From Bacillota bacterium (GTDB taxonomy: Bacteria; Bacillota_A; Clostridia; Tissierellales; Peptoniphilaceae), in the NCBI GenBank assembly GCA_023418535.1, contig JAEZZN010000082.1, forward strand, positions 1-10,330: a stretch of 10,330 bases of DNA, written 5' to 3'. The position numbers and the translations under genes were made by a program. Each line of letters opens with the position of its first letter. Position 1 is the stretch's first letter. This document shows, in pieces, positions 1-10,330 of the stretch. A model generated the notes under the pieces. It was not told the DNA's origin. It saw nothing but the letters and a program-made list of their open reading frames with translations, and did not search any database.

Positions 1-1265
1 AAATGAAATATATTGGATATTACTATGTAGATATAGCTTGGATGCACAGATATTGCGGAGTTTTTGAGTTAGAACATGATGGCGTTATATTTTATTTTTT
101 AGATAATGAAGCTTATTTTAATAGAGAACAATTGTATGGTGAATTTGACGACGCTGAAAGATATATATTCTTTTCAAAAGCAGTTGTTGTTTTACCTAAA
201 TATCTAGACTTTAAGGTTGATGTAATAAATGCTAATGATTGGCATACAGGTCTTGTTCCTGTATATGTAAATGATTTTAGAAATGGTGATGATTTCTATA
301 AAGATACAAAAACACTATATACAATTCATAATATTAAATATCAAGGCATATTTGATCCTGCTGTATTTGCTATGACAGGCCTTGATGTGGGATATATGAA
401 TTATAATGATTTAGAATTTCATAAAGCTATCTCATTTATGAAAGGTGGAATCGTACATTCTACTAAATTTAACACAGTATCAAAGACTTATGCTGAAAAT
501 ATTAAAACATCGTTTTATGGTGAAGGTCTTGAAGATGTTATTAACTATCATTCATATAAACTTTCAGGAATTGTAAATGGAATAGATTTTGATGTATGGA
601 ATCCAAAGACAGACAATTCAATCACTACAAATTATACTATTAGATCTATTAATAGAAAATCTAAAAATAAAACAGAATTACAAAAAAAATATGGTCTTCC
701 TATCGATCCAAATATTCCAATGATTGGTATGGTTACAAGATTGACTTCGATGAAAGGACTAGACTTGTTGCGATTTATTTTAGATGAATTACTTCAAGAA
801 AATATACAATTTGTAGTACTTGGTACTGGTGATTATGAATATGAAGAAATGTTGAAATATTTTGAATATAAATATCCAGATAAAGTTGCTGCTAGAATGT
901 ATTTTAGTAGTGAAGAAGCAAATATGATATATGCTTCAAGCGATTTATATATGATGCCATCAATATCTGAACCTTGTGGTATATCTCAGCTTATTGCAAT
1001 GAGATATGGTTCTATACCAATAGTCAGAGAGACTGGTGGACTTAAAGATACTGTTGAGCCTTACAATATATACACAGATGAAGGCACAGGATTTACTTTT
1101 GCAAATATAAACGCTCATGAACTTTTATTTAAGACAAAAGAAGCTGTATCACTATATATCAATGAACGTGAAAAATTCAATAAAATTATTAAAAATGCTA
1201 TGAGTAAAAAGTTTAATTGGGATCAATCATCCAAAGATTATATTAAATTATATAAAAGCTTGTAG
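1..1265 (+). CDS. glgA: Glycogen synthase GlgA (GT5), 5'-truncated by window edge
   Basis: Transfers glucose from ADP-glucose to the non-reducing end of alpha-1,4-glucan in the cytoplasm. The frame is open to the left edge. The ATG at position 3 is probably internal, because the first visible residues already match family sequence lying some 60-70 residues in, so the N-terminal KTGGL nucleotide-sugar loop is outside the window. Counting from that ATG (420 residues visible), the GlgA signatures are DWHTG at 79-83, TIHN..YQG at 107-115, VNGID followed by VWNP near 192-201, the Arg and Lys of VTRLTSMKG (R246, K251), and EPCG at 323-326. E323 and C325 correspond to the catalytic-site Glu and Cys of E. 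coli GlgA; RETGGL..TV follows. The segment before EPCG reads PSIS where most relatives have PSRF or PSSF. All key residues in view are present, so it is probably active. It is the first visible gene of the operon, 14 nt before the phosphorylase homologue. Confidence 0.95.
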   Translation, partial: MKYIGYYYVDIAWMHRYCGVFELEHDGVIFYFLDNEAYFNREQLYGEFDDAERYIFFSKAVVVLPKYLDFKVDVINANDWHTGLVPVYVNDFRNGDDFYKDTKTLYTIHNIKYQGIFDPAVFAMTGLDVGYMNYNDLEFHKAISFMKGGIVHSTKFNTVSKTYAENIKTSFYGEGLEDVINYHSYKLSGIVNGIDFDVWNPKTDNSITTNYTIRSINRKSKNKTELQKKYGLPIDPNIPMIGMVTRLTSMKGLDLLRFILDELLQENIQFVVLGTGDYEYEEMLKYFEYKYPDKVAARMYFSSEEANMIYASSDLYMMPSISEPCGISQLIAMRYGSIPIVRETGGLKDTVEPYNIYTDEGTGFTFANINAHELLFKTKEAVSLYINEREKFNKIIKNAMSKKFNWDQSSKDYIKLYKSL

Positions 1266-1279: not shown

Positions 1280-3550
1280 GTGACTAAATATGATTTAGAA
1301 AAAACAATTGAAAATAATCTTTTTAAATTATTTGCTAAAGATTTTAAGCATGCCAGAGATGCAGAAGTTTTCATTGCATTAGCTAATAGTCTTAGACAAA
1401 TAATTGGTGAAAAATGGTTTCATTCTTTATACGATAATATATCAAGTAAAAGAATATATGTGCTTTCATTTGAATATTCTTTTGGTGAGAATTTATATAA
1501 AAATTTAATAAAACTTGATTTATTAAATGATGTTAAAGAAATATTAAAAAAACATGAAATTAATTTTGAAAACATAGAACAACAAGATTTAGAATTTGCT
1601 TTAGGATTTGGTGATTTGGGTGAAATCTCAAGTTATCTGCTTAGTGCGCTTACAAATCACCATAATAATGTATATGCATATGGCCTTAGATATAGAAAAG
1701 GAATGTTAAAACAAGAAATCATAGATGGTAGACAAATTGAAAAGCCAGATGATTGGAAAGTTAATAAAAATCCTTGGGAACATGAAAAAGGTTTTAGTCA
1801 TAATATAATCTTTTCAGACTATGAGGTTGAAGCAATACCTTACGATATACCTATAGTTTCTAATGACTCTAACAGAGTTAATACTTTAAGGCTATGGAAG
1901 TCTTATTCTAAGACAGATATTAATTTTGATGAGTTTTCTAAAGGTGAAATAAATAATGCTTATAATGATATAATTAGAGCTAATTCTATTGTTGAATTTC
2001 TATATCCAAGTGAAGGAAATCTTCCAGGTAAAAAACTTAGATTAACTCAGGAAATTTTCTTTGCTAGTGCATGTATTCAAGATATATTAAAAAAATATAA
2101 AAAATATATGAGTGATGATATTGAGAAAATTCACGAATATATTAAAATTCAAATTAATGATATTCATCCCGCATTTGCTCAAATATTATACATTTATTAC
2201 TTAACAAATAAGTATGGATTAGAGTTTTCGAAAGCTGTTTCAATCGCAAAAAAAACTTTTGTATATATGCAATTATCAATATTACCAGAATCGTTTGAAA
2301 CTTGGGATATTTCATTATTAAGTGAAGTTTGTCCATATTTAATTGACACTATTTATGAATTAGATAAATATGTGAAAGAAGATTTAGAAGAAAAGAAAAT
2401 ATTAAAGACAAAGCCTTTGTTAATTATTCATGAAGGTAAAGTTGACATGAATAATATTTTATATTTTATTTCTAAAAATATTTTTACATTAGTTGAGGAT
2501 CATATATTTTTAATGCAAAATTATCAATTAAAAGAATTATATTTCGCTTATAATTCTAAAATTGAATTTATACAAATTAATTATGATTCAAAACAATATT
2601 TGAAAGAAAGTATTCAAAGAGAAAGTAATCATAATTTTAATCCTTTAGATTCTTCAGCTAAAGACTTTTACAATATAAAGAAGGAAAATAAAATTAAACT
2701 ATTAGATAGACTTGGAATAGATAAAAATCTAATTAATGTAGATTCTCCATTTGTAATGCATATGGATATTTTCCATGAAAATAAAAGACAGATATTATCT
2801 GCTTTGGGAATTGCATTGATGTATTTTAGATTAAAGAAAAATCCTAATTTGGATATTCCTCAAAGAACTTATTTCTTTGGTGGAAAATCTTATCCGAATT
2901 ATTATATAGCTAAAGAAACTATTTCATTTATAAATGCATTATCAAATTTAATTAATAATGATCTTTATATTAAAGATAAGATGAAAATAATATTCATTAA
3001 AAATTACAATATGACTGAAGCAACATATGCTATACCAGCATGTGATATAAATCAGAAATTAGAATTATTAAAGATGAATACAAGTGATATCACTCTTTAT
3101 AAGTCAATATTGAGTGGTGCAAATATCTTAGAATCAGTAAGTTCTTTTTATAATAGTGATTTTTATAAATTTGCTATTAATGTTTATAATTTTGGAGAAA
3201 CTAGAGATAATATCATATTCAATAATAAATATAATATGTATGAATATTTAGATAATAATCCTGAAATAAAGGAAATGTTTGATTTTTATAGATATCAATC
3301 AAAGAATGTGTTTCCTTTTGATATAGATATTATATACAACTCAATATATTATTTTAATGATGCGAATTTTATATTAAAAGATTTATTTGGATATGTTGAT
3401 GAGCTTGAAAAAGCCTTAAATGACTATAGAAATTATGACAATTGGTTTAGTAAAATTTATGATAATAAGAAAAAAATAATAAATCAAAATGATAAAGAAT
3501 CTATAGAAGAATTTGTATACAAAATTGGAGAATTAGATGCAGAAGATTAA
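1280..3550 (+). CDS. Glycogen phosphorylase homologue (GT35) with degenerate active site; probable pseudoenzyme
   Basis: The 756-residue frame starts at a GTG with a good ribosome binding site; active GlgP/MalP proteins are usually about 750-850 residues. Family framework is clear: LSFEYSFGENL (62-72), YGLRYRKGMLKQ (134-145), PDDW..NKNPWE (156-167), NTLRLW (201-206), KLRLTQEIFFASACIQDIL (252-270), QINDIHP (291-297), FFGGKSYPNYYIAK (532-545) and IKNYN (573-577). Catalytic elements are not. Compared with rabbit muscle phosphorylase as I recall it, the GNGGLGR loop is GFGDLGE (109-115), TNHT is MQLS (330-333; His377 becomes L332), Lys568/Arg569 become D496/I497, Tyr573 becomes N501, and GTEASGTGNMK is KMNTSDITLYK (598-608; Glu672 becomes N600). 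The PLP-lysine equivalent K608 and the Lys574 equivalent K502 remain. The segment holding SHSVNG and NGITPRRW is unrecognisable and about 27 residues short. Likely no phosphorolysis; a structural or regulatory role is inferred. I withhold glgP because activity is doubtful. Confidence 0.85.
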   Translation: MTKYDLEKTIENNLFKLFAKDFKHARDAEVFIALANSLRQIIGEKWFHSLYDNISSKRIYVLSFEYSFGENLYKNLIKLDLLNDVKEILKKHEINFENIEQQDLEFALGFGDLGEISSYLLSALTNHHNNVYAYGLRYRKGMLKQEIIDGRQIEKPDDWKVNKNPWEHEKGFSHNIIFSDYEVEAIPYDIPIVSNDSNRVNTLRLWKSYSKTDINFDEFSKGEINNAYNDIIRANSIVEFLYPSEGNLPGKKLRLTQEIFFASACIQDILKKYKKYMSDDIEKIHEYIKIQINDIHPAFAQILYIYYLTNKYGLEFSKAVSIAKKTFVYMQLSILPESFETWDISLLSEVCPYLIDTIYELDKYVKEDLEEKKILKTKPLLIIHEGKVDMNNILYFISKNIFTLVEDHIFLMQNYQLKELYFAYNSKIEFIQINYDSKQYLKESIQRESNHNFNPLDSSAKDFYNIKKENKIKLLDRLGIDKNLINVDSPFVMHMDIFHENKRQILSALGIALMYFRLKKNPNLDIPQRTYFFGGKSYPNYYIAKETISFINALSNLINNDLYIKDKMKIIFIKNYNMTEATYAIPACDINQKLELLKMNTSDITLYKSILSGANILESVSSFYNSDFYKFAINVYNFGETRDNIIFNNKYNMYEYLDNNPEIKEMFDFYRYQSKNVFPFDIDIIYNSIYYFNDANFILKDLFGYVDELEKALNDYRNYDNWFSKIYDNKKKIINQNDKESIEEFVYKIGELDAED
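3527..3530 (+). promoter_or_regulatory. Ribosome binding site for pullulanase, inside the preceding gene
   Basis: GGAG, preceded by TT, lies 6 nt before the ATG at 3537, within the last codons of the phosphorylase homologue. It supports a start that overlaps the upstream gene by 14 nt, so the two genes are probably translationally coupled. Confidence 0.65.
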
Positions 3551-5375
3551 CGAAATATATACTGATAAGGAGTTAGGTTTAATATACTCTAAAGAAAAAT
3601 CTATATTTAGAGTATGGGCTCCAACTCAGCAACAAGTGAAGCTTGCCTTATATGAAAATTATTCAACTTTGCAAAGACAAGTTTTTGAAATGAAAAAAGA
3701 TAAAGATGGAGTATTTGAGTATGAAATTGAAGGTGATTTAGAATCTATGTTCTATACATATCTTGTTAATGATAGTGAAGTTTGTGATCCATACTCATTT
3801 TCTACTTCAGCTAATAGTGTAAGAAGTGCTATAGTAGACCTAAAAAAATCAAATCCAGAAGGCTTTGAAGATCATTACATTCCATTTAATGATAAAGATA
3901 AAGCTATTATAGTTGAAACTCATGTTGCAGATATATCTATAAATGAAAATTCTGGAGCTATTAATAGGGGACTATTTTTAGGGGCTGCTGAAGTTGGAAC
4001 AAAGTATAATGATGTCGCAACAAACATTGATCACTTTGAAGAATTAGGCGTAACACATGTTCATTTACTGCCCGTTACAGATTATATTACAGTGAATGAA
4101 TTGAAGCCTTTATCGAAATATCCTGAAAACTATAACTGGGGATATGATCAAGAGCTTTATATGAATATAGAAGGGTCTTTTTCAACAAATCCAAATGACC
4201 CATATTCAAGAATTAAGGAATTTAAAACTTTGGTTAAAAACTATCATGAAAAAGGAATGTCTATAGTTTTAGACGTAGTTTATAATCATACTTTTAAAAC
4301 TTTTGATTCAGTTTTTAACACATTAGTTCCAAATTATTATTATAGAATGGAAGGTTCTGTCTTTGCTAATGGTTCAGGTTGTGGAAATGAAATAGCTTCC
4401 GAAAAACCAATGGTTAGAAAATTCATTATTGATTCGCTATTGTATCTTGCTAAAGAATATAAAATAGATGGTTTTAGATTTGATTTAATGGCATTAACTG
4501 ATATAGATACCATTATGGAAATAATTAGAGTGCTTAGGGAATACAATCCTAATATTTTAATATATGGAGAACCATGGATGGCAAATCCAAGTCCTTTAGA
4601 TTATAATAAACAAGTAAATATTGGATCTCAAAAAGGAAAAGATTTTGCAATATTTAATCCTTTCTTTAGAGATGCATTTAAAGGAGATAATGACGGCACT
4701 GTAAGAGGTTATTTACAGGGTGAATATTATAATAAAAATCAAATGCAAATAGGAATTGCTGGGTCTGTTCCAATGGATGAGATGGATACAAATTTTGAAA
4801 ATCCTTTGGAAGTTATTAATTACTTTAACGCACATGATAATTTAATTTTCTATGATAAACTAGTAAAGACTAGCGTTCCAGAAGAAAATATTAATGATTT
4901 AACCTATATGGCATTTTCAATACTTATGACAAGTCAAGGATTACCATTTTTCCATTCAGGAAATTCATTCTTAAGAACTAAAAAATTAAACCATAATTCA
5001 TATAATGCATCTGCAGATATAAATGGTATTGACTGGTCACTAAAGGAAAAAAATTATAATTTATTCTTAAAGATTAGGGATATAATTAAATTAAGAAAAG
5101 ATTTGGGTATTTTTAATATGAAAACAGGTGATGAAGTACGAGATAAGATTTCCTTTATAGATAATCTTAAAGATTATGTAATTGGCTATATTATTAATGA
5201 CCGTAAAAATTCTTTTTTAATATTACACAATGTATCTAAAAATATAGAAGATATTAATATGAAAAATTTAACCGATAAGGACAAAATTAAATTAATATTT
5301 TCAAATGGATTTGTTGATGAATATGTTAATAATATAAAATTGGGATCATATACAACAAATGTATATATAATTTAG
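3537..5375 (+). CDS. pulA: Type I pullulanase-like debranching enzyme (CBM48 + GH13)
   Basis: Hydrolyses alpha-1,6 branch points of glycogen- or pullulan-type glucans. The 612-residue protein shows no signal peptide, so it should act on intracellular glycogen or maltodextrin. An N-terminal CBM48-like beta-sandwich (about 10-100, with FRVWAPT at 24-30) precedes a GH13 barrel. The pullulanase signature YNWGYD is at 199-204. GH13 conserved regions are DVVYNHT (246-252), GFRFDLM with nucleophile D316 (312-318), YGEPW with acid/base E345 (343-347) and NAHDN with transition-state stabiliser D434 (431-435). LRTK...HNSYNA and IDW (479-500) follow, as in type I pullulanases, then a short C-terminal beta domain. 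All three catalytic carboxylates are present, so it is predicted active. It starts inside the end of the phosphorylase homologue, and its stop overlaps the next gene's ribosome binding site, indicating tight co-expression. Glycogen-debranching function is inferred from context. Confidence 0.93.
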   Translation: MQKINEIYTDKELGLIYSKEKSIFRVWAPTQQQVKLALYENYSTLQRQVFEMKKDKDGVFEYEIEGDLESMFYTYLVNDSEVCDPYSFSTSANSVRSAIVDLKKSNPEGFEDHYIPFNDKDKAIIVETHVADISINENSGAINRGLFLGAAEVGTKYNDVATNIDHFEELGVTHVHLLPVTDYITVNELKPLSKYPENYNWGYDQELYMNIEGSFSTNPNDPYSRIKEFKTLVKNYHEKGMSIVLDVVYNHTFKTFDSVFNTLVPNYYYRMEGSVFANGSGCGNEIASEKPMVRKFIIDSLLYLAKEYKIDGFRFDLMALTDIDTIMEIIRVLREYNPNILIYGEPWMANPSPLDYNKQVNIGSQKGKDFAIFNPFFRDAFKGDNDGTVRGYLQGEYYNKNQMQIGIAGSVPMDEMDTNFENPLEVINYFNAHDNLIFYDKLVKTSVPEENINDLTYMAFSILMTSQGLPFFHSGNSFLRTKKLNHNSYNASADINGIDWSLKEKNYNLFLKIRDIIKLRKDLGIFNMKTGDEVRDKISFIDNLKDYVIGYIINDRKNSFLILHNVSKNIEDINMKNLTDKDKIKLIFSNGFVDEYVNNIKLGSYTTNVYII

Positions 5376-5383: not shown

Positions 5384-7078
5384 ATGGAATATAGAAAAAT
5401 TTATGAAGAATGGCTAAATAATGAATATTTTGATGATAAAACTAGAGAAGAACTACTATCTATTAAAGAAGATGAAAATGAGATAGAAGATAGATTTTAT
5501 CAAAAGTTAAAATTTGGTACAGCAGGATTAAGAGGGAAAATAGGAGCAGGGACTAATAGAATGAACAAGTATACTGTTTCTTTAGCAACTCAAGGCCTAG
5601 CAGATACAATCCTTTCATATGGTGATGAAGCAGCACAAAGAGGTGTTGCTATTTCTCATGACGTAAGACATAAATCTAGAGAATTTGCTGAAATTACTGC
5701 TTCTGTTTTGGCTGCAAATGGAATAAAAGTATATATACACAAAGATATTACACCTACACCAGTACTTTCATATACTATAAGAAAATTAAATACAATTTCT
5801 GGAGTTATGATAACTGCATCACATAATCCTAAAGAATACAATGGTTATAAAGCATATTGGGAAGAAGGATCTCAAATTTTAGATAATATAGCAAATCAGA
5901 TATTAGATAATATTGAAAAAATTGGTGATTATAGTAATGTAAAAATAATCGATTTTGATGAAGGTGTAAATAGTGGTTTAATTGAAATATTAGACGAAAA
6001 AATTATTGATGAATATATCTCTGATGTGCTTAATTTGACAATTGAAGATGAAAATATTGATAAATCTGTAAAAGTTGTATATTCACCACTTAATGGTACT
6101 GGAAATAAATTAGTAAGAAGAATATTACAAGAAAGAGGATTTGAAAATATATACATTGTTAAAGAACAAGAAAATCCTGATCCTGATTTTACAACAGTTG
6201 GGTATCCAAATCCAGAAGATCCAAAAGCTTTCAAATATGCTGAAGCTCTAGGTAAAGAAAAGGGAGCTGAATTATTAATTGCAACAGATCCAGATGCAGA
6301 TAGAACTGCTCTTGAAGTTTTAAATAAAGATGGAGAGTATCAATTTTTAACAGGTAATGAAATCGGTTCATTATTAACATATTATATTTTATCTAGACTA
6401 CATGAAAGAGGAGAAATGCCTGAAAACCCAGCAATAGTTAAATCTATTGTTACATCAGATTTACCTGATAAAATAGCTAAAAAATACAATGTCGACTCAT
6501 TGAATGTATTGACAGGATTTAAGAATATATATGCTCCTGCTAATGAATGGGATGAAAACAATGAGAAAACATTTGTATTTGGATTTGAAGAGAGTATAGG
6601 CTATTCATATGGATCAAAAGTTAGAGATAAAGATGCAATTTCATCTGCTATGATGATAGTTGAAATGGCCGCTTACTTTAAAGCTCAAGGTAAATCATTG
6701 CTTGATGTGCAAGAAGGATTATTTAATGAATTTGGATATCATGGAGCAAAACTAATTTCTATAGTATTAGAAGGATTAGATGGACAAAAGCTTATTTCTA
6801 GAATAATGAAAGAATTTAGAGAAAATCCTATTAAAGAAATTGGTGGTCATGAATTAGTAGAAGTGATTGACTATCAAAATGATAAAACTGGATTACCAAA
6901 ATCTGACGTAATGAAATATATTTTAAGTGATGGTTCATGGTATGTTTTAAGACCATCTGGAACAGAACCAAAAATTAAACTATACATTTATTCAAACGCT
7001 GATACAAAAGAAGCTGGAGATGATATGGTAAATGAAATATTTGATACAGCTAACAATAAAATTAAATCAGTAGAATAA
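5384..7078 (+). CDS. pgm: Phosphoglucomutase, alpha-D-phosphohexomutase family
   Basis: Interconverts glucose-1-phosphate and glucose-6-phosphate through a phosphoserine enzyme. This links glycogen turnover to glycolysis and to UDP- or ADP-glucose supply in the cytoplasm. The 564-residue length fits the PgcA/PGM2-type subgroup. All four family sites are intact: KFGTAGLRG near the N-terminus (43-51), the active-site serine S146 in TASHNP (144-149), the Mg-binding loop DPDADR (302-307), the sugar-binding GFEES (400-404) and the phosphate-binding RPSGTEPK (523-530). TGFKNI (377-382) also fits this subgroup. It is the last gene of the glycogen block, 8 nt after the pullulanase stop, and is followed 42 nt later by a terminator hairpin. 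A phosphopentomutase or phosphomannomutase activity is possible in this family, but the glycogen context favours glucose. Confidence 0.95.
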   Translation: MEYRKIYEEWLNNEYFDDKTREELLSIKEDENEIEDRFYQKLKFGTAGLRGKIGAGTNRMNKYTVSLATQGLADTILSYGDEAAQRGVAISHDVRHKSREFAEITASVLAANGIKVYIHKDITPTPVLSYTIRKLNTISGVMITASHNPKEYNGYKAYWEEGSQILDNIANQILDNIEKIGDYSNVKIIDFDEGVNSGLIEILDEKIIDEYISDVLNLTIEDENIDKSVKVVYSPLNGTGNKLVRRILQERGFENIYIVKEQENPDPDFTTVGYPNPEDPKAFKYAEALGKEKGAELLIATDPDADRTALEVLNKDGEYQFLTGNEIGSLLTYYILSRLHERGEMPENPAIVKSIVTSDLPDKIAKKYNVDSLNVLTGFKNIYAPANEWDENNEKTFVFGFEESIGYSYGSKVRDKDAISSAMMIVEMAAYFKAQGKSLLDVQEGLFNEFGYHGAKLISIVLEGLDGQKLISRIMKEFRENPIKEIGGHELVEVIDYQNDKTGLPKSDVMKYILSDGSWYVLRPSGTEPKIKLYIYSNADTKEAGDDMVNEIFDTANNKIKSVE

Positions 7079-7169: not shown

Positions 7170-7175
7170 AAGGAG
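7170..7175 (+). promoter_or_regulatory. Ribosome binding site for the FHA protein
   Basis: AAGGAG lies 5 nt before the ATG at 7181. A GTG at 7175 is in frame but overlaps this site, so the ATG is the better start. The site would sit at the extreme 5' end of the predicted transcript. Confidence 0.75.
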
Positions 7176-7180
7176 TGAAT

Positions 7181-7726
7181 ATGAGAGAAATATTAAATGC
7201 AATAAGAAACTTTTTCTTTTATGACATAATTGCAGACATTAATTTATATACAATAATTTCTACATTTTTTAAATTTATATTTGTATTTATCATTTTATAC
7301 TATATTTACATTATCGTTAAACTTATAGTACTTGATATCGGAAATATAGACCATAATGAAAAGATTAAAAGAAATATTTTAATTGTAAGTCATAGTAATC
7401 AAGATGATAAAAGATTTTTATTAGAAAATGTAACTAGAATAGGTAGATCTTTTTCCAATGATGTAGTGTTAGAAAGTCCAATGGTATCTGCTCAACATGC
7501 AGAAATTATAAAATCTGGAAATGCTTACTATATCATTGATTTAGATTCTTCAAATGGAACAATATTAAATGGAGAGCCTGTACATGAAAATTTAGAGTTA
7601 CTTGATGGTGATATTATAGATATAGCTGACTTTAGATTAAAATTTATTGAAGAAGAAAGCGATGTAAATGATAAAAATATGAATTACAATAACTCATTTA
7701 CAAATAATACTCAGGGCGGAAACTAA
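7181..7726 (+). CDS. Membrane-anchored FHA-domain protein of a SEDS/PBP operon
   Basis: Forkhead-associated domains bind phosphothreonine peptides. This 181-residue protein has one hydrophobic segment (about 24-52), a linker, then an FHA domain (about 66-157). The phosphopeptide-binding residues are recognisable: GRSFSND with R89 (88-94), SAQH with S103 and H106 (103-106), and SSNGT with N125 (123-127), followed by NG (130-131). The C-terminal tail, rich in Asn and Asp, looks disordered. An ATG start at 7181 is chosen over the in-frame GTG at 7175. The gene opens an operon with FtsW/RodA and a class B PBP, separated by 1 nt from the next. The architecture recalls mycobacterial FhaB/FipA next to rodA and pbpA, so it may link a PASTA-type Ser/Thr kinase to the wall synthase. 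No kinase is in view. The role is inferred; the domain call is firm. Confidence 0.9.
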   Translation: MREILNAIRNFFFYDIIADINLYTIISTFFKFIFVFIILYYIYIIVKLIVLDIGNIDHNEKIKRNILIVSHSNQDDKRFLLENVTRIGRSFSNDVVLESPMVSAQHAEIIKSGNAYYIIDLDSSNGTILNGEPVHENLELLDGDIIDIADFRLKFIEEESDVNDKNMNYNNSFTNNTQGGN

Positions 7727-7727
7727 T

Positions 7728-8999
7728 ATGGAAATGTCTAGAAATGTATTTACTTTCAATTATAAAAAATCATACAATAGATCAATAATAACAAGTTTAT
7801 TTATGTTTCAAATATTTGGAATATTATTAGCTATTCTAGCAAATGAAGAAGTAAATATCATATCAATTTACCTTTCAATTGCCTTTATATTTGCAACATT
7901 GTTTAGTAATATTTATATTCCAAAAATTACAAAATCAGATTCTACATTTATATTGGTTGTAAATATGCTATATTCAATAAGTGTGATTATGATAATGAGA
8001 TTATCAAGCAATCTTGTGATAAAACATATTATTTGGTATTTATCAGGACTTGTAATTTTGTTAATAGTATATTATTTTATGAAATTTGTTGACAAAATAT
8101 TAAAAGGTAAATTTTTATTTTTCTTTATTATAACTACACTTACTTTTGCAGTAACTCTAGCATTAGGTTTTACATCTGGAGGTGCTAAAAACTGGATAGA
8201 TGTTGGTGGGCTATTTACTTTACAACTATCTGAATTTGGGAAAATTTCATTTATATTTATGATTGAATCTTATTATTATAAATATGATGATTTTACAAAA
8301 AACAAACTAGGAAAATATTATTTAATATTATCAACATATGTATTTGCATTGTTATTCTTTGTTCAGGGAGAATTAGGTACAGCTATTATATTTTTTGGGC
8401 TATTGATTGCAAATATGTTTATTTTTGAAAAACGCTATATTTTTATAGTCCTTAATATTATTTTAGCTTTGGTTGGTGTTTATTTAGCTTCCCTTGTATT
8501 ACCACATATCAAAGTAAGAATTAATATATGGCTTGATCCATGGAAAGACTTCAATGAAAGAGGGTATCAAATAATACAGTCTCTTTTTGCAATTGCAGGT
8601 GGGGGATTTTTTGGAACAGGTATAGGATTAGGTATGCCACATTTGGTTCCTGTTGTTGAATCTGACTTTATACTTACGGCTATAATTGAAGAAATGGGTA
8701 TGTTTATGGGATTTTCAATTATATTGATGTATATTTTATTATTCTATAAAACATTAAAGCTTTCTCTAGAATTTTCTTCAAAATATTATAGCTCTTTATC
8801 TTTATCGATAGGATTAATATATGCAATGCAGGCACTTATTATGTTTGGTGGAATATTAAAATTAATACCTTTAACTGGTATTACAACACCATTTTTAAGT
8901 TATGGAGGAAGCTCAACAGTTTCTAATTTCATATTACTTTCTATATTGCAATATTTATCACAGAAAGCAGGTGAGGGAAATGAACAATTCAAAAAATAG
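7728..8999 (+). CDS. SEDS-family peptidoglycan glycosyltransferase (FtsW/RodA/SpoVE type)
   Basis: Polymerises lipid II into glycan strands in the cytoplasmic membrane, normally paired with a class B PBP. The 423-residue protein has about ten hydrophobic segments. SEDS motifs are GAKNWIDVGG..TLQLSEFGK (152-171), QGELGTA (213-219), RGYQIIQSLFAIAGGGFFGTGIG (278-300), ESDFI..AIIEEMG (311-324) and PLTGITTPFLSYGGSS (381-396). D313 corresponds to the putative catalytic Asp seen in E. coli FtsW D297. The usual Asp of the PDLGT motif is Glu here (E215). The ATG at 7728 is supported by GGGCGGA upstream; a second ATG at 7734 is possible. Sequence alone does not decide between RodA-like elongation and FtsW-like division, but the FHA and PBP neighbours fit the RodA-PbpA arrangement. 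It overlaps the PBP gene by 20 nt. Confidence 0.93.
   Translation: MEMSRNVFTFNYKKSYNRSIITSLFMFQIFGILLAILANEEVNIISIYLSIAFIFATLFSNIYIPKITKSDSTFILVVNMLYSISVIMIMRLSSNLVIKHIIWYLSGLVILLIVYYFMKFVDKILKGKFLFFFIITTLTFAVTLALGFTSGGAKNWIDVGGLFTLQLSEFGKISFIFMIESYYYKYDDFTKNKLGKYYLILSTYVFALLFFVQGELGTAIIFFGLLIANMFIFEKRYIFIVLNIILALVGVYLASLVLPHIKVRINIWLDPWKDFNERGYQIIQSLFAIAGGGFFGTGIGLGMPHLVPVVESDFILTAIIEEMGMFMGFSIILMYILLFYKTLKLSLEFSSKYYSSLSLSIGLIYAMQALIMFGGILKLIPLTGITTPFLSYGGSSTVSNFILLSILQYLSQKAGEGNEQFKK
8969..8974 (+). promoter_or_regulatory. Ribosome binding site for the class B PBP
   Basis: AGGTGA, part of the AGGAGGTGA Shine-Dalgarno complement, lies 5 nt before the ATG at 8980, inside the end of the SEDS gene. 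It makes that ATG more likely than the in-frame GTG at 8971, which lies within the site. Confidence 0.65.
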
Positions 9000-10330
9000 A
9001 AAAATAGTTTTTTTACTTTATACTATTATAGGACTATTTTTAGCTATTTCTCTTTATCTCGTTTACTTTCAACTATTTAAGTCAAATGATTTGAACAACG
9101 ATTCTAGAAATGCAAGGAATTTTATAGATGAATCAACTATAAAAAGGGGAACTATATATGATAAAAATGGTTTAGAACTTGCATATTCTGAAAAAGTAGA
9201 TGATAGTTATCAAAGAATAAATAGATATAACTATATGTATTCTAGTGTTATTGGATATAATTCAAGCAAATACGGAAAAAGTGGTATTGAAGGATCTTAC
9301 AATACAGACTTATTAAATATAAACAATAATAAAGATTTTTTTACTAAGATAGATAGTCTTATAAAACCAGTTGATGGTAATGATGTGTATCTAACGATAG
9401 ATGATGATTTACAATCATATGCATATGATTTGTTAGGTGATTTATCAGGATCTGTAATAGTATCAGATCCAAATACTGGAAAAATTTTAGCAATGGTGTC
9501 TAAGCCTACATTAAATGTAAATAATATAGATGAAGATTGGGAACAAATTATAAACTCTGAAAATGGAGAATTATTAAATAGGCCTACTCAGGGTCATTAT
9601 GAACCAGGCTCAATTTTCAAAACGCTAAGCTCTTTAGTATTTTTAAGAAGCGGTATAGATTTAGACTATTATGATACAGGAGAAGCTACTATAGAAGGAC
9701 ATAGTGTATATAATTTTGATAATGGTGTATATGGAGAAATGAATTTAGAAAAAGCTCTTAATGTTTCAGCTAATACCTATTATTATGAAAAATCGCAACT
9801 TGTTTCTAATGCTGATTTTAGAAAAGCTATACTAGATTTTGGAATAGGAAAAAAATTTGATTTTCCATTAAATATTGTCCAATCTGAATTTCCTTTCAAG
9901 GATTCATTATCCGCAATAGATAAAGGTAATGCTGCATTTGGACAAGGATTGACTTATGTAAATCCTTTAGATATGAGCTTAATTGTCAATGGTATTGCTA
10001 ATAATGGAATAGTACAAAAACCAATTTTAGTTGATAAGGTTGTAAGAAGCGGTATCGAAATACCAACAAAACAAGAAGTTCTATCAAGTGAAGTAGAATC
10101 TCAATATGCAAACATTATTAAATCTTATATGAAAAGCACTGCAGAATATAATAATTATACGAACTATATTCAATCAAGCCTTGCTGCTAAAACAGGTACA
10201 GCGGAAAATGGACAAGGTTCATATAATACATGGTTTATGGGAATATCTCCTGTAGATAATCCAAAATACACAATTGTAATAACAATTGAACATCAAGATG
10301 AAGCATCAGGAAATAATGCAGCACCTATAG
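8980..10330 (+). CDS. Class B penicillin-binding protein (transpeptidase), 3'-truncated
   Basis: Cross-links peptidoglycan stem peptides outside the membrane, as the partner of the SEDS polymerase encoded just upstream. The first 450 residues are visible and the frame is open to the window end. A short cytoplasmic N-terminus and one membrane anchor (about 9-30) are followed by RGTIYDKNG (56-64), the class B PBP N-terminal motif. The transpeptidase domain has all three active-site motifs: SIFK with nucleophile S211 (211-214), SAN (263-265) and KTGTA (404-408). The first motif is more often STFK. The region between anchor and catalytic domain is short, as in PbpA-like rather than long FtsI or PBP2 proteins. 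No N-terminal PASTA repeats are seen; the C-terminus is out of view. The 20-nt overlap with the SEDS gene implies coupled expression of the pair. Confidence 0.93.
   Translation, partial: MNNSKNRKIVFLLYTIIGLFLAISLYLVYFQLFKSNDLNNDSRNARNFIDESTIKRGTIYDKNGLELAYSEKVDDSYQRINRYNYMYSSVIGYNSSKYGKSGIEGSYNTDLLNINNNKDFFTKIDSLIKPVDGNDVYLTIDDDLQSYAYDLLGDLSGSVIVSDPNTGKILAMVSKPTLNVNNIDEDWEQIINSENGELLNRPTQGHYEPGSIFKTLSSLVFLRSGIDLDYYDTGEATIEGHSVYNFDNGVYGEMNLEKALNVSANTYYYEKSQLVSNADFRKAILDFGIGKKFDFPLNIVQSEFPFKDSLSAIDKGNAAFGQGLTYVNPLDMSLIVNGIANNGIVQKPILVDKVVRSGIEIPTKQEVLSSEVESQYANIIKSYMKSTAEYNNYTNYIQSSLAAKTGTAENGQGSYNTWFMGISPVDNPKYTIVITIEHQDEASGNNAAPI

Follow-up and report, generated by a model that had tools for sequence, protein, structure and literature searches.

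A degenerate glycogen phosphorylase homologue, probably a maintained pseudoenzyme, in a glycogen operon of Peptoniphilaceae

The window analysed here is a 10,330-nucleotide stretch of DNA (positions 1 to 10,330 of contig JAEZZN010000082.1, assembly GCA_023418535.1) from a Bacillota bacterium of the family Peptoniphilaceae. Between its glgA and pulA genes lies a gene for a GT35 (glycogen phosphorylase family) protein, which we refer to as pseudo-GlgP and which, judging from alignments, is very probably a catalytically dead enzyme. The interpretation that it is a maintained pseudoenzyme is well supported by sequence comparison. An earlier note, made from the letters of the window, had described an intact 756-codon frame, and the frame was confirmed, with a GTG start and no internal stop.

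Loss of the catalytic site

Residues 89-749 of pseudo-GlgP match PF00343 (372.4 bits), which places the protein in GT35, and its score on TIGR02093 (415.1 bits) is below the NCBIfam phosphorylase cut-off of 552.9. The nearest named genome is that of Helcococcus sueciensis DSM 17243, whose pseudo-GlgP has 96 percent amino-acid identity to that of the window; H. sueciensis also encodes another GlgP, a canonical one, which reaches 1063 on TIGR02093 and has 792 amino acids, compared with 756 for pseudo-GlgP. The predicted model of pseudo-GlgP is confident and contains the entire GT35 fold, and 50 structural matches share 23-28 percent identity with it. Alignment with canonical GlgP located the following replacements.

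1280..3550, forward strand: pseudo-GlgP, a degenerate GT35 protein
1604..1615, forward strand: GFGD in place of GNGG (residues 109-112)
2267..2278, forward strand: MQLS in place of TNHT (residues 330-333; His377 to Leu)
2765..2785, forward strand: DIFHENK in place of KRxHEYK (residues 496-502; Lys568 to Asp, Arg569 to Ile, Tyr573 to Asn)
3077..3106, forward strand: NTSDITLYKS in place of EASGTGNMKF (residues 600-609; Glu672 to Asn, Gly-Thr-Gly to Asp-Ile-Thr)

All of the losses called in the earlier note (GNGG, His377, Lys568, Arg569, Glu672 and the Gly-Thr-Gly loop) are therefore right by this alignment. The residue numbers are those we take to apply to the muscle enzyme, as are the roles in binding phosphate, glucose and pyridoxal phosphate (PLP). 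On the same assumption about roles, 16 key residues, including GNGG, His377, Lys568, Arg569, Glu672, Gly675-Gly677 and Lys680, were scored against the canonical H. sueciensis GlgP. The window protein keeps four and has lost 12, and the equivalents of Lys574 and of Lys680, the residue of the PLP Schiff base, remain lysine. Pseudo-GlgP would thus be unable to phosphorolyse glycogen.

The window protein was aligned with 139 GT35 sequences, taken from frames of fetched loci and from database proteins, with exact duplicates removed and near relatives included. In the key-residue scoring of these 140 rows, from which two fragment rows were set aside, 56 rows keep 14-16 key residues, 82 keep 1-9 and none keeps 10-13; some canonical rows score 15 because residue 649 there is Asn. 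The degenerate family is spread over many anaerobes, in Helcococcus, Anaerococcus and their relatives; named relatives with degenerate residues include H. sueciensis, H. ovis, H. kunzii, Anaerococcus vaginalis, A. rubeinfantis, A. jeddahensis and A. ihuae. In the 82 degenerate rows the His377 column holds Phe (33), Leu (18), Thr (9), Val (5), His (4), Ala (4) and others. A search that started from a member on the Anaerococcus side gave 1319 matches, and all 120 of the proteins listed among them keep 1-4 key residues. Lys680 is kept in none of these 120 and in just 46 of the 82 degenerate rows, which suggests that PLP is not required by the degenerate family overall.

The loss is concentrated in particular segments. 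Conservation reaches 95 percent or more in 159 columns of the canonical rows, and mean retention of these columns in the 69 core degenerate rows is 0.49. Among the columns kept in fewer than 10 percent of the core rows are those of the glycine loop, of the loop around His377, of segment 484-491, of Lys568-Arg569 and of loop 672-680; the columns kept in more than 90 percent are scattered across the remaining fold. Given the like loss in 82 of 140 rows and the purifying selection on the gene described below, the loss of catalytic residues in the window gene is evidently not due to chance.

In a first tree (94 rows) the canonical rows formed one starred clade, with the very long rows L079, L080, L091 and P0042 among the others. 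In a second tree (54 rows), which left out these four and near-duplicates, the 24 degenerate rows used all fall to the same side of a single branch with Shimodaira-Hasegawa approximate likelihood ratio test (SH-aLRT) support of 100. As an indication of a single origin of the catalytic loss this is tentative: the search was quick, the tree has no established root, and long branches could have been drawn together artificially. When 249 genomes across the order were searched with a degenerate profile, with few candidates scored per genome, matches above 700 bits were found, among those listed, only in the 130 genomes of the window's family, so copies that have diverged strongly may exist outside it.

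Operon position, selection and divergence

Of these 130 family genomes, all of which were examined, 72 have GT35 matches; a hand count gave 52 genomes with a degenerate copy (carriers) and 20 with a canonical copy only. In H. sueciensis the operon order is glgB-glgC-glgD-glgA-[pseudo-GlgP]-pulA-pgm, with GlgB, GlgC, GlgD and GlgA above NCBIfam cut-offs. The degenerate gene lies between glgA and pulA in all 32 carrier loci read (of 52), and it is tightly packed in the 30 in which it is undivided. A canonical GlgP is also encoded, elsewhere in the genome, in 50 of the 52 carriers. All 52 carriers have a GlgA match, as do 19 of the 20 genomes with canonical copies only, so such a match does not separate the two groups. 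As a side observation, the canonical GlgP is itself in pieces in two of the 50 carriers, G015 (C247) and G077 (C375 and C165), as two frames or contig-end fragments.

All 52 slot-type copies scored keep 1-9 of the 16 key residues (those of G039, G069 and G096 were scored as pieces only). No operon-slot relative with an intact site was found in the family, the best keeping 9 of 16 and 11 later-scored slot copies 1-5. The earlier note had held that close orthologues with intact motifs would make the gene a decaying allele, and its reading is not refuted by this check. Three slot copies, L010, L011 and L012 (in G086, G073 and G087), show partial decay; they keep 7-9 key residues and retain parts of the TNHT and KR motifs without the PLP-phosphate loop. 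These copies could possibly represent early stages of loss.

In 20 loci from sister families, chosen from the order-wide search, GlgP keeps 15-16 of the 16 key residues in every case; it lies directly 3' of glgA in three and elsewhere in a glg cluster in one, and the other 16 have no glg gene in the stretch read. The simplest history would be that the operon copy lost catalysis in the window's family and that another, canonical copy was retained. Nine further family genomes (G046-G054) gave a match for GlgA and none for GT35; in the two of these that were read (L106 in G052 and L107 in G047), glgA has no recognised glgC, glgD or pulA nearby.

The dN/dS comparison that the earlier note had proposed indicates purifying selection. 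Between the window and H. sueciensis the ratio (omega, Nei-Gojobori) is 0.096 for pseudo-GlgP and 0.060-0.135 for five neighbouring genes. Besides this pair, 23 degenerate pairs share 72 percent identity or more; the 18 of them with measurable dS gave omega values of 0.055-0.153, a range that falls within that of the 22 measurable canonical pairs out of 30 (0.024-0.175). The frame is undivided in 49 of the 52 carrier genomes. A decaying allele is disfavoured both by omega and by orthologues that share the same loss. Low omega, intact frames and a loss common to slot orthologues are what the maintained pseudoenzyme proposed earlier would be expected to show, and pseudo-GlgP may, as the note suggested, have a new role.

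Dimer interface and possible roles

Conservation in the degenerate family has moved away from the catalytic segments, which have lost constraint in every sub-lineage tested. Three elements concern the dimer interface; the placement of residues 163-173 is our assumption.

1319..1354, forward strand: CAP element of the dimer interface (residues 14-25), mapped by alignment from mammalian residues 35-46
1766..1798, forward strand: putative strand facing the partner's CAP (residues 163-173), with WEHxKxF nearly invariant in the degenerate family
1946..1993, forward strand: tower helix of the dimer interface (residues 223-238), aligned without a gap

In the part of the source consulted, CAP and tower are residues 35-46 and 261-276 of the mammalian enzyme (PMC10116597). 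The conservation rank of CAP is 0.69 in core degenerate rows compared with 0.21 in canonical rows.

A precedent for an inactive partner exists in the same operon. According to the part of PMC9093745 consulted, GlgD in Firmicutes is an inactive ADP-glucose pyrophosphorylase subunit that modulates GlgC. Pseudo-GlgP resembles GlgD in three ways: it is an inactive paralogue whose active counterpart works in the pathway, it is encoded in the same operon, and it is less conserved than that counterpart. Pseudo-GlgP is less conserved than canonical GlgP in eight of eight genome pairs, as is GlgD compared with GlgC (loci L001, L035-L037, L042, L043, L045 and L048). In contrast to the GlgC/GlgD partnership, which the literature demonstrates as far as that source was seen, the pairing of pseudo-GlgP with GlgP is our proposal, and the canonical glgP lies outside the operon.

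The explanation we tentatively favour, at somewhat below even confidence, is that the slot glgP of the glgBCDA-P-pulA-pgm operon has become a pseudoenzyme acting as a non-catalytic partner or regulator. The GT35 fold is kept in the predicted model and the residues binding phosphate, glucose and PLP phosphate are lost; the protein would be retained for its shape and dimer contacts rather than for chemistry. It may function by forming dimers without catalysis. Its most likely partner is canonical GlgP (or a second copy of itself), bound through the CAP/tower interface, and such pairing could tune or position glycogen breakdown, much as inactive GlgD modulates GlgC. By analogy, a GlgP partner or regulator is our first choice, because canonical GlgP is present in nearly all carriers and because of the GlgD precedent; a glycogen scaffold without GlgP contact ranks second. 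A stronger form, in which the dead phosphorylase is a regulatory GlgP subunit throughout the family, so that one operon would encode two inactive partners, GlgD acting in synthesis and pseudo-GlgP in breakdown, and each would tune the active enzyme to which it is paralogous, is plausible by the same analogy but doubtful.

Several results weigh against the partner reading. Three of the 52 copies are broken into two frames or interrupted by stops (L142 in G039, L113 in G069 and L093 in G096), apparently as recent losses, and the slot is empty, with a pulA-like gene straight after glgA, in 11 of the 13 canonical-only genomes read; one of the other two has a 349-amino-acid frame between glgA and pulA and one has no adjoining pulA. 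We take these broken copies and empty slots to mean that pseudo-GlgP is dispensable over long times. Two carriers, G027 and G059, show no canonical GlgP, although these genomes are possibly incomplete. Between H. sueciensis and G058, identity is 57 percent for pseudo-GlgP, compared with 83 percent for canonical GlgP and 67-79 percent for glgB, glgC, glgD, glgA, pulA and pgm. The interface signal is also modest. Circular-shift p values replaced Mann-Whitney ones, which ignore the correlation between neighbouring residues, and single interface elements became weaker, with p of 0.02-0.04 for CAP and 0.26-0.55 for the tower, in segments of our own choosing. The rank gain of the tower over canonical GlgP of the same family is just +0.09. 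In ten outer degenerate rows the catalytic loss is present, but the gain at the interface does not reach significance (p 0.06-0.12). CAP, alpha2, the 250' loop and the tower hold 4 of 19 degenerate-specific residues, which is no significant enrichment (p 0.096), and this comparison is not used as support.

The main alternative, which we consider somewhat unlikely, is that the dead protein, as a homodimer, tethers operon enzymes such as GlgA or PulA to the glycogen particle and makes no contact with canonical GlgP. Its position between glgA and pulA in all loci read, the tight packing, the entire fold and the presence of GlgA in every carrier are consistent with such a scaffold; the canonical GlgP of 50 carriers is a point against it that says little alone, as 19 of the 20 canonical-only genomes also have GlgA. 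Alternatively, an effector could bind to the part of the dimer interface where CAP and the nucleotide site lie, and its signal be relayed to GlgP. K271, K275 and Y276 are among the largest rank gains and lie in the segment equivalent to mammalian Arg309-310, which belong to the adenosine monophosphate (AMP)/glucose 6-phosphate site (PMC10116597), and a structure of a bacterial GlgP containing AMP is available (9ukr). However, the gain over residues 265-278 is not significant (circular-shift p 0.16-0.31, all core rows), and we regard a ligand sensor as unlikely.

A new activity in the old cleft would fit the low omega and the presence of E105, E546 and N693 among residues conserved only in the degenerate family. 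However, the catalytic segments have lost constraint in each sub-lineage tested, the replacement residues vary among relatives, and the alignments (without mapping on coordinates) show no new conserved set of cleft residues, which makes re-purposing quite improbable. A slowly decaying pseudogene would account for the disrupted copies, the empty slots and the rapid protein divergence, but it is hard to reconcile with undivided frames in 49 genomes, omega values inside the canonical range in all 18 measurable pairs and a confident full fold; we consider it very unlikely. Least probable of all, and scarcely credible, is a still-active phosphorylase with unusual residues: the lysines equivalent to Lys574 and Lys680 are present in the window protein, but most key residues are gone, Lys680 is kept in little more than half of the degenerate rows, and H. 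sueciensis has a canonical copy.

Known systems and neighbouring genes

Pseudo-GlgP shares full-length homology, fold, CAP and tower, and operon slot with GT35 glycogen/maltodextrin phosphorylases (PF00343, TIGR02093), but it lacks their catalytic, phosphate and PLP-phosphate residues and scores under their NCBIfam cut-off. The same gene order, with amy in place of pulA, is found in the glgBCDAP-amy-pgm operon of Lactobacillus acidophilus, where, in the part of PMC4282360 consulted, the slot gene encodes a putative glycogen phosphorylase whose deletion impairs growth. In contrast, the slot gene described here is predicted to be catalytically dead, and the canonical copy is elsewhere in the genome. 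Pseudoenzymes in general have lost catalytic motifs and kept the protein, as in pseudo-GlgP (PMC10211241, seen in part).

Neither a GT35 pseudoenzyme family nor a dead phosphorylase was found in the literature searched, which covered dead phosphorylases and the glycogen genes of these genera, with most subscription papers outside its reach, and the terms 'pseudoenzyme' and 'catalytically inactive' are absent from the portion of a review seen (PMC11046441). Pseudoenzymes as such are known; a family of them within GT35, in the glgP slot of an operon, appears to be new, as far as that literature goes. A natural dead GT35 line in glycogen operons would be a convenient system for testing which functions of the phosphorylase dimer are independent of catalysis. 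Named database relatives are annotated 'glycogen/starch/alpha-glucan phosphorylase', and a model of Anaerococcus or Helcococcus built on such annotation would therefore take a dead protein for the enzyme of the operon.

The other genes of the window are as follows.

3..1265, forward strand: glgA, glycogen synthase (PF08323, 192.7 bits; TIGR02095, 464.6 bits, above cut-off); the window starts inside this gene
3537..5375, forward strand: pulA, type I pullulanase (TIGR02104, 603.9 bits, above cut-off)
5384..7078, forward strand: pgm, phosphoglucomutase/phosphomannomutase family (PF02878, PF02879, PF02880, PF00408)
7175-10329, forward strand: an FHA-domain gene, an FtsW/RodA-family gene and a penicillin-binding-protein-2-like gene, 3' of the glycogen operon

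The start of pulA overlaps the 3' end of the pseudo-GlgP gene by 14 bases. The FHA, FtsW/RodA and penicillin-binding-protein-2-like trio also lies 3' of pgm in most of the related loci read, and links glycogen and cell-wall genes.
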